Of a stretch of DNA of 44,162 nucleotides, positions 366 through 44,162 are shown in pieces (position 1 is the stretch's first letter; each line of letters opens with the position of its first letter). Origin of the DNA: Endomicrobium sp. (GTDB lineage Bacteria > Elusimicrobiota > Endomicrobiia > Endomicrobiales > Endomicrobiaceae); NCBI GenBank assembly GCA_031272265.1, contig JAISUD010000015.1, positions 1-44,162 on the forward strand, in the 5' to 3' direction. The notes below the pieces were generated by a model. The model did no database searches, was not told the origin of the DNA, and worked only from the letters and a program-made list of their open reading frames with translations. The position numbers were made by a program, and so were the translations under genes.

Positions 366-780
366 CTCAAACAGATTAACAAATTTTTTAAAGTTTTAAA
401 AGAACTAAAGAGCTAAAGAACTAAAGAACAGATTTTCATTAGAAACAACGGAATAGAAAAGTTTGCAGTTTACACTTTTATCACAATCTTGTCGTCTATG
501 AGTCCACTTGTGTATATATAATCAAGTCTATAGTATGTATACCAAACAACATCACAACATCGCATTTTCAAAGGCGAAAATGCGATAATTGCGACTGATT
601 TTAAGTTGTTTAAGGAACAATATCTACTTTGGGGAAATGGGGAAATAAAGAATAATCGGCAATAAGCAAAAAATTGACAAAAAATAATGGAAATAATATT
701 ATCATGAATCATGAATAAAGATTGCCAAAGGCTATGCAGAGATAGAAGTAAAAAATAAAACAAACAATGAAAAAAATTAA

Positions 781-814
781 CACTTTACAAGATTCTGTAA
801 AGTGTAAACGTTTA
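781..814 (+). promoter_or_regulatory. Hairpin and palindrome just upstream of lipoprotein gene
   Basis: CACTTTACA (781-789) and TGTAAAGTG (796-804) are perfect 9-bp arms around a 6-nt loop. They are followed at once by the palindrome TAAACGTTTA (805-814), 14 bases before the ATG at 828. The right arm is part of the TGTAAA-N-TGTAAAC repeat. The position suits an operator or a leader hairpin. The same region of the paralogue at 42016 (ttacaaaattctgtgaaagtg) is a degraded version. The role is inferred from position only. Confidence 0.45.
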
Positions 815-827
815 AATAAGAATAAGA

Positions 828-1616
828 ATGAGAAAAATCGCACTAGTATTAATATTATTTCAACTCATCGGCTGTGCGAAGCAACCAGGCGTCATCACCC
901 ATCCTGAGAATAAGCGAGAGCAAGAAACACTTCAACACGACACTCCTCAAGCACCTAAAACTAACTACCTGAAAATAGGAGCATACATCGGAGGCGTCAT
1001 TCTTGTCAGTCTTGCCATCGTTGGGATCATCATAGCCTACTGCTGCACACGAAAAGGGAAGAAGAGTGTGACACCCATTGACAAGAAGGAGCAAGCTAAA
1101 AAGAGAGCGGAGGAGAGAGCGCAGCAGGACGCGCAGGATGTAGACAGGATCGTGCAGAAATCCTCCCAGTACATACGGGGCAATTGTTCTGATTCTGATA
1201 TCGAGGACAACATTCTCAAGACATATACCAACCACCCGATATATAACGGCAACGTGGAACTAGAAGCGATATTAAAGTGGTTCCTCCTACTGCCCATGCC
1301 CAAAAGGATGCTTGGCGCGGCACCAGGTGAGACTTACCTCAGCCGTCAGAGAAAGTACACGAAGGCGGAGTTAAATAAGGAAGTCGAGCGAGAACGCAAG
1401 GCAAATCCGAAGATGCCTATGTCAGAACTATTGGCAAAGATAGAGAGTCGCAGGTGGTGTTTTATAAACGATACCAAGGCAAGCCTGCTGAGCACCAAAA
1501 GAAAGCTGAGAACCTCAGGGGAGTACGGCAAGACGTTGGCGCCGTTTTTGATGACTAACATAACACGCATTGTATACTATTATGAGTTTAAGGAAGCTTT
1601 ACTCAGGAGTAAATAA
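828..1616 (+). CDS. Lipoprotein-family membrane protein, intact paralogue 1
   Basis: 262 aa. The N-terminus is a short lipoprotein signal peptide ending in the lipobox LIGC, with Cys16 as the lipidation site. After a polar linker comes a hydrophobic helix at about residues 49-72 that ends in YCC and a basic stretch (CCTRKGKK). The positive-inside rule then puts the C-terminus in the cytoplasm. A charged, probably helical region (about 85-110) follows, then a basic domain with no recognised fold. Spacing from lipobox to helix matches the paralogue at 2119. Its GC content is clearly higher than the rest of the cluster: two 60-base lines inside it have 57% and 52% G+C by hand count. That suggests different selection or recent transfer. 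The stop overlaps the next paralogue's start (TAATG). Function unknown. Confidence 0.8.
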   Translation: MRKIALVLILFQLIGCAKQPGVITHPENKREQETLQHDTPQAPKTNYLKIGAYIGGVILVSLAIVGIIIAYCCTRKGKKSVTPIDKKEQAKKRAEERAQQDAQDVDRIVQKSSQYIRGNCSDSDIEDNILKTYTNHPIYNGNVELEAILKWFLLLPMPKRMLGAAPGETYLSRQRKYTKAELNKEVERERKANPKMPMSELLAKIESRRWCFINDTKASLLSTKRKLRTSGEYGKTLAPFLMTNITRIVYYYEFKEALLRSK

Positions 1617-2118
1617 TGAGAAAGATAGCGATAGCATTAATCTTGTTTCAGCTAATCAGCTGTGCGAAGCAACCAGCAATAGTTACAAATCAGACTGAAA
1701 TAAACAGACTAAAAGCTGAAGCAGAAAAAACTATGAAGAAGCAATTTTTTGGAATGTAGTAGCAGTAGGAATGTGTGCAATCCTTGCATTTGGTCTCAGC
1801 ATATTCATACACGAAACAGCTAAAATGAAACAAAGCAAAATAACCTTAGAAAAAAAGTAGAAGAGGCAGAAAAAAAATAGAAGAGATAGAGCAACACACA
1901 ATAAACTCACAAGTAAGATTAACAGTAGCAGAAAAAAAAGCAGAAGAGATGAAAGATGAAACAAGCCCAGTCGAAACACGAAGAACACCGTATTGAAGCA
2001 TGAAGTAAGAAAATTAAAAGTCCAACAACAACAAGACCAACAAGACCTAAACGAATTGCAAGACGAACCACCCCCCCCATTGGAAGTCAAAAACAAACCA
2101 GAAGAAGATGCAAATGAA
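1616..2118 (+). pseudogene. Broken lipoprotein-family paralogue
   Basis: An SD (AGGAG, 1605-1609) precedes ATG 1616, which overlaps the previous stop as TAATG. The first 47 codons give MRKIAIALILFQLISC plus linker and end at TAG 1757. Adding one A to the A6 tract at 1725-1730 opens a frame with FWNVVAVGM and a transmembrane helix. The A7 (1850-1856) and A8 (1870-1877) tracts each also need one more A to continue into a Glu/Lys-rich coiled coil. The tail (QQQQDQQDLNELQD, then a proline run) is in yet another frame and reads straight into the next paralogue without a stop. The layout matches the broken genes at 42016 and 43325. It is either a decayed gene or one whose reading depends on slippage. 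Confidence 0.75.
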
Positions 2119-2724
2119 ATGAAAAGAATCGCAACGGTATTAATATTATTTCAGCTAATAGGATGTACTAAGCAACCTATTATAATCAAACAACCAGGAA
2201 AAATAATAGAAGAGACAACAACAGAACCAGTAAACAGAATATCTTTTTGGGAATCTCTCTCAAAAACCCAAATTATAGTTGGTGTTAGTATACTCGGACT
2301 TGCAATAGCATTAGTAACAATAATATATTGCTGCGATATTTGCAAAACCAAAGAACAAAAAATCAAGAAACCAGTACTAAACGAGATACTAGACTCAATA
2401 TTAAAAACAAGACTATATATAATAGAAACACTCGAATACAAGGGAGTACAAGAAGTAGTAGAAAGCAATGAACTAAGAAATATGCTAGACACCATAAATG
2501 CACAAAGTGACGAATCTGTTGTAGAAAAGTGGATTGTTTTGTATAACGATCAAATTGAATCTTTTCAAAAATTATTTACTGTTGAAAAAGTAACAGAAGG
2601 AAATAGAGAAGACAAAATAGTCGCCGCCAACACCTTACTTCAAGCACTAATATTAAAACCATTTTTTGAATACAAGCAATACCTTCTAAAGACAGGTGGA
2701 AACGAAACAATAACTTTTGAGTAA
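2119..2724 (+). CDS. Lipoprotein-family membrane protein, intact paralogue 2
   Basis: The ORF track starts this frame at 1993, but residues before MKRIATVLIL are the tail of the upstream broken paralogue, so I place the start at ATG 2119 (201 aa). The lipobox LIGC gives Cys16. A transmembrane helix spans about residues 51-70 and is followed by YCCDIC, three cysteines at the presumed cytoplasmic edge. The rest is a mostly helical acidic/basic domain of about 125 aa without recognised family features. No clear SD is visible. Translation may depend on the upstream gene, whose alternative frame would stop at TGA 2120-2122, forming ATGA with this start. Function unknown. Confidence 0.75.
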   Translation: MKRIATVLILFQLIGCTKQPIIIKQPGKIIEETTTEPVNRISFWESLSKTQIIVGVSILGLAIALVTIIYCCDICKTKEQKIKKPVLNEILDSILKTRLYIIETLEYKGVQEVVESNELRNMLDTINAQSDESVVEKWIVLYNDQIESFQKLFTVEKVTEGNREDKIVAANTLLQALILKPFFEYKQYLLKTGGNETITFE

Positions 2725-38699: not shown

Positions 38700-38784
38700 C
38701 TTATCTCCTATTTTTAAGCACGATTTGAAATTCCAGTAAAATATTAGAGCCGCGCACATGGCGCAGCCCTGCATTGTATTTATA

Positions 38785-41746: not shown

Positions 41747-42015
41747 ATATTTTTTGATATGATTTATTAAGCTTGATAACTTTTCTTTTTTAAATCACGG
41801 AGGGAAGTGGAGTTTTTAATCAACAAGTTATCAAGAATAAGATCTGAAGTTATCAATGATCAAAAAGAATAGTTTAAAGGATCTATTTTATTTAGATGTA
41901 ATTGACAACATGCAAAGAGAAGGAGTAAAATATTGTTAGAAAGAACAAGGAAAATGACAATGACTAACAATTTACAAAATTCTGTGAAAGTGTAAGTGTT
42001 CTAAGAAAGGTGAAA

Positions 42016-42845
42016 ATGAGAAAAATTGCAATAGTATTAATATTATTCCACATTAATCGGCTGCGCTAAACAACCAGAAATAACCACAAACCAGAACGGA
42101 AACGAAATAAACAAACTAAAAGCCGGAATAGAAAGAATAGAGAGAAATTATAAAAGCGAAATTTTTTGGAACAGAATGGGGATGGGAATAATAACGCTAA
42201 CAGGAATAATAGTAATTACAATACTTGCAATAAATAACTGCAAATTAACAAACAAAATAGACCAAACAAAAACAGGCATTAGCGAATCCCAACAAGATCA
42301 ACAAGATATATTCAGAAATAAAAAAACAGATAGAAAACTTATACCACAAAGCCGATGAAGTAGAAGAAACACTTCAGGAGGCACTCAATGAAGCAAGAGA
42401 AAAACCTGAATCAATAAGAGAAGAAATGAAAATATGCAACGAAAAAACAGAAAGCAAAATTGGAGGATTACAAAATAACCTACAAGAACTAACACAAGAA
42501 ACATCAAGAATAAAAGAGGAATTTAAAGAAGAAATAAAATAAATAAGAGAAAAAGTAACCGAAATAGAATCATCAGAACAAAAAGAATCAGAAAGAACAA
42601 GAGAAGACATAGACCAAATGAAAACAGACATTAGAGAACTCCAAGAACGACAGAGCGATCTAACAACAACAATGGAAGAAAAGAATGAAGACACAAAAAG
42701 AGAAACAGAAACTCTATCAAAAGGAGAAGAAGTAATACACCAAGAAATAATAGAAATAAGGGAAACAATGGAACAAATAAGAAAGGAAATAAACCAAATA
42801 AAACAACCAAGAATAGAAGCAGAAACACAAACAGATGAAAAGTAG
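42016..42845 (+). pseudogene. Coiled-coil lipoprotein-family paralogue, broken
   Basis: AAGGTG precedes ATG 42016. One extra base in attccacattaat disrupts FQLIGC. The next frame gives KQPEITTNQN, SEIFWNRMGMGIITLTGIIVITILAINN (membrane helix) and Cys. A second shift near 42330 leads to a long Glu/Lys/Gln-rich coiled coil (IEEIEQ-like heptads), with an in-frame TAA at 42539-42541. It then continues to EAETQTDEK and TAG 42843. Repaired, it would be about 275 aa. Track ORFs 42176 and 42618 are its pieces. Layout is the same as 1616-2118 and 43325 onward. Confidence 0.75.
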
Positions 42846-42895: not shown

Positions 42896-43315
42896 ATGAA
42901 AAAAGCTGCAATAGTATTAATCGTGTTTCAACTAATCGGCTGCACTGGAAAACCTGATACTGTTATTATCGACAGACACCAAACAGGAGAAGAAGGAAAG
43001 CCTATTATTATTATCACCGGACAATCAACAGGAGGGGAACAACCACATACTACTATTATTAACAACAGATGCCCAACATCAACAAAAACACCTGAACCAG
43101 TACAAACATCACCACCAGTACAAACATCACCACCAGCACAAACATAAATACCAACAAAAATGGGAACAACAGAAAAAATAGTAGCCACCACCATCGTACT
43201 ATTTCTATCAGCAATAGCCATATACAACTTATGCAAGTGTTGCAGTCAGGAACAGGGAATAACTACTGATAAAAAGGAAAAACGACAAATTATACTTATG
43301 CCGAACCAACCATAA
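42896..43315 (+). pseudogene. Lipoprotein-family paralogue with in-frame stop before the membrane helix
   Basis: The first 83 codons give MKKAAIVLIVFQLIGC (Cys16), a periplasmic part rich in Ile/Thr (PIIIITGQS) and a repeat PVQTSPP-PVQTSPP-like end, then TAA 43145. The same frame then continues open for 55 codons: MGTTEKIVATTIVLFLSAIAIYNLCKCC and a basic end, to TAA 43313. The helix with Cys pair matches the other family members, so the natural gene was probably 139 codons. The short form would be a normal soluble-tail lipoprotein without the helix. The ATG of MGTTEK could also re-initiate translation. Confidence 0.65.
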
Positions 43316-43324
43316 TTAAGATAA

Positions 43325-44162
43325 ATGAGAAGAATCGCAATAATACTAATTTTATTTCAACTAATCGGATGTATACAGCAGCCAGCAATAACTACAAACC
43401 AAAATGCAAAAGAAATAAACGAACTAAAAACTGCCATTGAAACAATAAAAAAAGGAAGAGAACATGATAAACAACAAATAGAAAGGTATGAAAGCGAAAT
43501 TTTTTGTAACAGAGTATAGGCAGCAGTAGGAATAGGAATTGGAGTAATAGCAATAATAGCGATTGGAGTAGTTGTAAAAAATAACCTTGAATTAAAAAAC
43601 AAAATAGAAGAAGGAAAAAACAACTAGAAAAAACCCGAGATGGAACGCAAGGAAGTATAACCTCATTATTAAACAGAGTAGAACAACCAAAACGGAAAGC
43701 TGATAAAGCAGAAAAAGATATAGAAGAGCTAAAACAAAACGTAACCAATTTGCAAGAGGCACACGCAAACGACATATCTGCACTACAGCAGCAAGCTACT
43801 AGACTAGAGGACAATATAAAAGCAACAGAACAAAGAGTAACCGACACCCACGCGGGGGATTAAGAGACGAAATAAGAAAAGGAGAACAGACAAATAATGC
43901 GAACGCAGAAGCTATAAAAAAAACAAACGAAAGGATAACCAATATAAACAAAGAACTCAATGAAAAGACGGACGATGCAGTCGACGAATTAACAGCAAAA
44001 TTAGACGAGGTGCAAAAGACATTAACCTCTAAACAAACGCAACAGGAAGAACAGCGCAGACGTCAAGAGGAAGAACAGCGCAAGCTATCACAACAACCAA
44101 CACGCGAGGCAGTCCCACTCGACGAACCACCAGACCACCCAAAAAAAGCAGACCCATGTGGC
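43325..44162 (+). pseudogene. Coiled-coil lipoprotein-family paralogue, broken, runs off the window
   Basis: ATG 43325 opens MRRIAIILILFQLIGC (Cys16), QNAKEINELKTAIETI and YESEIFCNRV, then in-frame TAG 43517. The same frame continues AAVGIGIGVIAIIAIGVVV (helix) to a further TAG. Another frame carries a coiled coil (KADKAEKDIEELKQNVTNLQ..LEDNIKATEQRV) to TAA after a G5 tract near 43855. A third frame continues IRKGEQTNNANAEAI...ELTAKLDEVQKTL, EEQRRRQEEEQRKL and a proline-rich end still open at 44162. In the paralogues FWN stands where this has FCN. At least 280 aa when joined. Confidence 0.7.

Follow-up and report, generated by a model that had tools for sequence, protein, structure and literature searches.

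A large family of lipobox proteins with a second membrane helix in an Endomicrobium genome, and its probable association with small plasmids

Six genes sharing a lipoprotein head on a single Endomicrobium contig appear, from their sequences, to be members of a large lineage-specific paralogous family. The reading that we favour, with moderate confidence, is that these genes, two of them intact and four broken, belong to a plasmid-associated family of inner-membrane proteins with two anchors and a cytoplasmic body that changes fast, a family multiplied by duplication and 5' recombination and now decaying in this genome. The window, i.e. the whole stretch of DNA that was analysed, is the entire contig C15 (44,162 bases) of the source genome, hereafter G000, whose assembly comprises 30 contigs and 698,591 bases and is 60.5% complete. 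G024 designates a second species of the same genus. The 16S gene carries the exact site of the Endomicrobia-specific primer 16S-Endo-1502f and the corresponding 23S primer site is found with one mismatch, both primers being published (PMC4356469). The GC content of 34% and the sizes of congeners fit Endomicrobiellum, the genus to which the endosymbionts known from flagellates of termite guts belong (PMC11257099); G000 is probably a member of it, and probably has a protist host. The features of the window are the following:

772..813, + strand: inverted repeat ahead of the 828 gene, with its core palindrome at 784-801
828..1616, + strand: intact member, 262 aa
1616..1759, + strand: broken member, head and linker, stop after 47 aa
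2119..2724, + strand: intact member, 201 aa, with head, linker, transmembrane helix ending in YCC (about residue 70) and body
41971..41988, + strand: near-copy of the upstream palindrome with 1 mismatch, preceding the 42016 copy
42016..42845, + strand: broken member, head frameshifted, hydrophobic segment and coiled-coil-like body fragmented
42896..43147, + strand: member with head and proline-rich body, 83 aa, in-frame TAA before any helix
43160..43315, + strand: short frame with a helix ending in LCKCC, past the stop of the 42896 gene
43325..43519, + strand: broken member, 64 aa, TAG ahead of the helix

The 828 gene displays, in this order, the head (residues 1-16, with the lipobox LIGC), a linker, a helix at about residues 48-71 ending in YCC, and a body that is first basic and then helical. 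The first-pass annotation had reported the second helix ending in YCC for both 828 and 2119, which is indeed the case, and these two are the only genes among the six in which the full layout is intact, the other four being broken before or within the helix. In the 1616 copy, the hydrophobic stretch runs on in a different frame to about 1860; in the 43325 copy, the helix and a coiled-coil-like body persist in pieces up to the contig end. The LCKCC helix that had been assigned to the 42896 gene exists, but an in-frame TAA separates it from that gene and it lies in its own short frame, a probable 3' part of the gene cut off by the stop. The palindrome TTTACAnnATTCyGTAAA (at most 1 mismatch) is found in G000 only 25-27 bases upstream of four family genes, namely 828, 42016 and two located elsewhere in the genome.

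The six heads are all present, at 828, 1616, 2119, 42016, 42896 and 43325, that of 42016 being frameshifted inside the head. They had been described as almost identical over 16 codons. The likeness holds at the protein level (pairwise identities of 69-81% over 16 residues for the five unbroken heads of the window), but the codons differ (window mean pS 0.56, pN 0.14). Among 26 copies of G000 the mean head identity is 67%, compared with 20% for unrelated lipoprotein heads taken as controls from congeners and from G071. For the same 26 heads pS reaches 0.63, so that synonymous sites are near saturation, with a pN of 0.16; the heads are thus old and constrained at the protein level. They combine the positive n-region, short hydrophobic core and lipobox (LIGC type) of lipoprotein signals, with the Cys present in 25 of 26. 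Since such composition is common to signal peptides, ordinary lipoprotein signals could in principle resemble each other by chance, a case that the first-pass annotation had itself singled out as fatal to the family. The difference between 67% and 20% identity refutes it for the heads of G000, as do profile E-values down to 1e-33 and the conservation in all 26 heads of a polar residue, Q12, inside the hydrophobic core, where generic signal peptides do not require a glutamine; chance likeness is practically untenable. In addition, 5 matches to a DNA pattern of the head occur in the window, where 0.23 would be expected.

Searching G000 with the head as a profile, as had been proposed, yielded 49 matches (profile built from 14 heads, match threshold E<=0.1). 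Many of them have no start codon or contain internal stops. The copies often form tandem arrays (C22, C29, C10), many at contig ends, and most of them are decayed. For instance, the first 20 kb of C29 contain just three frames of at least 150 aa among at least 7 family matches. The presence of copies at both ends of the window, correct as to the positions, has little meaning of its own because the window is a whole contig, and it probably reflects assembly breaks at repeats. The genes flanking the arrays, which were named by eye from their sequences, resemble ordinary chromosomal genes. The small contigs examined are thus pieces of the chromosome, and the idea that they could be plasmids was rejected. 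Two AbiLi/AbiLii-like gene pairs, which are anti-phage candidates, were also observed on G000 contigs with family members (L062:956-2956 and L059:286-2138).

The layout was counted in lipobox frames using a mechanical rule, a helix located 12-140 residues after the Cys. It was found in 11 of 16 frames in G000, 50 of 69 in G024 and 8 of 17 on plasmids. The controls had it less often: other congeners in 2 of 12 frames and G071 (a single contig of 1,588,979 bp) in 2 of 14. The enrichment in G000 and G024 over both controls is significant (Fisher p=4e-7); the regions of these two genomes were partly picked because they contain members, which biases the densities but leaves the fractions meaningful. 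The first-pass annotation had pictured a lipid anchor outside and a helix passing inward, and the cytoplasmic body that follows from it is the more likely topology: past the helix, the net charge is higher in 31 of the 43 proteins that show a difference (31 vs 12; sign test p=0.005), a moderate bias that may fail for individual members. The suggestion of a contact with the host cell finds no support here, given that a body lying in the cytoplasm, as predicted, could not touch the host and that the plasmid association described below points elsewhere.

Such a contact would be expected if the family consisted of variable surface lipoproteins with bodies outside the cell, diversifying at the interface with the protist host. 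The Vsp proteins of M. bovis provide a precedent, being paralogs with a conserved N-terminal lipoprotein module, variable bodies and many genes per locus (PMC10504702), and our family shares with them the conserved lipoprotein head followed by a variable and sometimes repetitive body. The intracellular life of the group (PMC11257099) and the pN/pS values above 1 in G024 bodies also fit this explanation. However, Vsp bodies are surface-exposed tandem repeats without a second helix, whereas here the second helix and its basic C-terminal flank predict a cytoplasmic body, and layout genes are plasmid-borne. Tandem-repeat bodies are absent from the intact 828 and 2119 and were seen only in some plasmid and G024 proteins, and the mostly decayed copies of G000 do not suggest a needed host interface. 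We therefore regard surface variation of this kind as unlikely.

The same order of elements would also suit a trans-envelope tether with its lipid in the outer membrane, its helix in the inner membrane and its linker bridging the periplasm, spanin-like with a cytoplasmic tail and perhaps replacing lost outer-membrane links. The linkers of about 60 residues in G024 could cross the periplasm, G024 encodes LolA, OmpA and TolB are missing in many relatives (PMC11257099), and 828 has a weak match to Rz-like spanins (E=0.008). On the other hand, the G000 linkers are short (28-39 residues), in G024 about one half of the layout proteins have the Cys followed by Asp, the inner-membrane retention signal of E. 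coli (G000 proteins mostly have A, T or S there), and a structural tether has no need for tens of divergent bodies. A tether is, in our opinion, rather improbable, and we retain the inner membrane for both anchors. Lgt and LspA were detected in 34 of the 37 genomes searched, side by side in congeners, and LolA above cut-off in 23 of 42 genomes. In 18 of 42 genomes of the genus, a set with many incomplete assemblies, no LolA was detected. Lgt, LspA and LolA were not found in the 60%-complete G000 assembly. In Ca. E. trichonymphae a lolA sequence below cut-off contains two stops (G067:C1:254919-255224), and the lgt of one congener is split by stop codons (G011:C65:8090-8823), which bears on the ability of that congener to make lipoproteins.

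The G000 head profile had been proposed as a probe for relatives too, where it performed less well: 34 of 35 congeners gave no match and G024 only two weak ones. The loci of these two matches show the lipobox-linker-helix layout again, with heads of other sequence. A profile built from the G024 heads detected at least 65 copies in G024 itself, most of which lie in open frames; in the 77 family genomes scanned, it also matched G000, G006 and G067 weakly. The layout is common to G000 and G024, and their profiles are alignable only across the 16-residue signal peptide, which means that the layout may have more than one origin. Samples of the nearest relatives G014, G064, G025 and G065, chosen by a single housekeeping protein, contained essentially no layout genes, and a sample of the Ca. 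E. trichonymphae chromosome contained none. At one G024 locus (L147; G024:C2:46862 and 49159), a head of the same kind is followed by bodies with KYGYDRDGYD-type repeats and no helix.

The link with plasmids emerged from the layout and from the profile of the G024 heads; it did not come from 828, whose protein retrieved no relatives from plasmid and phage records. The three matches in G067, which is a Ca. E. trichonymphae genome, lie on three small contigs matching plasmids pRSTT1-3, to which plasmids pTGRD1-3 are related. Each of the six Ca. Endomicrobium trichonymphae plasmids that have been sequenced (pTGRD1-3 and pRSTT1-3) carries layout genes with other heads, and every CDS listed for them is annotated as a hypothetical protein. 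Apart from a protein of about 420 aa found on 4 of the 6, the products of these plasmids are mainly lipobox proteins. Several of these have a linker rich in TP or NGD and then a helix, and on pTGRD3 and pRSTT3 they contain two or more hydrophobic segments. The protein of about 420 aa has no Pfam match; its first 70 residues match a protein of about 454 aa present about once per genome, presumably DnaA, and it is itself a presumed replication protein. A relative of it (E=1e-89) lies at G024:C23:40067, on a 57-kb contig, within an array in which members at 38753 and 44539 flank it; none was found in the 60%-complete G000. Similarly, the chromosome record of Ca. E. trichonymphae opens with two copies of the replication-like gene and fragments of lipobox genes (L162, G067:C1:1-16000), and the start of this record is likely an integrated plasmid. 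In some other congeners, contigs with the replication-like gene carry lipoproteins mostly devoid of the helix.

This plasmid link, together with the patchy distribution and the many broken copies of G000, would also be expected from a selfish or passive expansion, in which plasmid genes without cell function were integrated, duplicated and left to decay. Such an expansion does not readily account for heads that stay constrained despite near-saturated synonymous divergence, nor for the mostly intact copies of G024, and it seems improbable to us.

A constant head with variable bodies had been noted for the window, and the comparison of paralogs bears this out for the heads of G000 and for a subfamily of G024. 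In the latter, synonymous divergence amounts to 0.15 for the head and falls to 0.08-0.09 for the linker; it then rises to 0.21-0.27 for the helix region and to 0.27-0.40 for the body. Outside the head, pN/pS exceeds 1, a value that for the body may partly stem from loose alignment. The 5' part is homogenised while the bodies diverge; this gradient is the pattern expected of a 5' module renewed by recombination, to which loose body alignment may contribute. Two G024 genes, L083:839 and L142:4557, have a second lipobox-like motif (SISGCAKQPAG, containing SGCAKQP) after the linker and are probably chimeric. A long coiled coil had also been anticipated: it is not shown for either intact window gene, but the broken copies 42016 and 43325 have coiled-coil-like bodies. 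The AlphaFold model of 828 is mostly helical with low confidence (mean pLDDT 53). In that of the G024 subfamily, the linker (21-68) is disordered, a long helix (69-98) comes next, and the C-terminal part folds into a beta domain (pLDDT of about 91); Foldseek gave no match to this model at E<=0.001 in PDB and viral libraries.

Some known systems resemble the family in part. The Mlp and Erp lipoproteins of Borrelia are multicopy, have conserved leaders and are encoded on small cp32 plasmids. Compared by description and not by sequence, they share these three properties with our family, but they are located at the outer surface, have no second helix and belong to another phylum. One-component spanins (phage T1 gp11 type) have a lipobox at one end and a C-terminal helix, and are single phage lysis genes. 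In our family, a transmembrane helix similarly comes later in the chain, but it is followed by a body tens to hundreds of residues long and copies are counted in tens; the arrays sit among housekeeping genes and not beside a phage lysis cassette. Chlamydial Inc proteins, secreted and with paired helices, are likewise many divergent helix-anchored proteins of an intracellular bacterium, but they have no lipobox.

The first-pass annotation knew of no described family with this layout. Consistently, none was found in Pfam, NCBIfam, PHROGs, PADLOC, PDB and viral folds, viral contigs, plasmid and phage records (with 828) or GTDB genomes. Members gave only weak or sub-threshold matches in Pfam, NCBIfam, PHROGs and PADLOC, with the exception of LPAM_1, above cut-off in one G024 layout protein; for instance, one G024 body matched FAP206 weakly (1e-4, below cut-off). 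Profile and protein scans of the genome contig and viral contig collections retrieved no relatives, and lipoproteins are not mentioned in PMC11257099 or PMC8809381. The layout and its plasmid link are undescribed as far as the databases and literature searched go, subscription papers being mostly outside the search.

A possible course of events can be proposed. The 16-residue head would act as a lipoprotein signal and its Cys, once lipidated, would become the new N-terminus on the periplasmic side. The flexible linker would run through the periplasm and the second helix would re-enter the membrane, leaving the variable body in the cytoplasm. The family would travel on small plasmids and then integrate, the integrated genes multiplying by tandem duplication. 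Their 5' module would be renewed by recombination while the bodies diversify, most likely in an intracellular conflict with phages or other plasmids, and the copies would finally decay in a shrinking genome. A role in such a conflict is a guess, which we rank above contact with the host on account of the topology predicted here and of the carriage of layout genes on plasmids.

A more specific version can be put forward tentatively. Intracellular Endomicrobia would possess a plasmid-borne class of doubly anchored proteins, with swappable 5' anchors and fast-changing cytoplasmic bodies directed against competing plasmids or phages, and in G024 a repeat would tune the length of the signal peptide and hence the amount of protein reaching the membrane. 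Reduced symbiont genomes are expected to shed redundant genes, yet G024 keeps at least 65 members and G000 is a graveyard of them. The plasmids of Ca. Endomicrobium trichonymphae receive here a first coherent description, as carriers of layout proteins, and a shaping of protist-symbiont envelopes by plasmids becomes testable. The repeat in question, (ATATGT)n, is an in-frame hexanucleotide with n=1-9 in the signal peptides of related G024 genes (L083:839, L079:18799, L141:3400 and others), and it alters signal-peptide length by Ile-Cys pairs.
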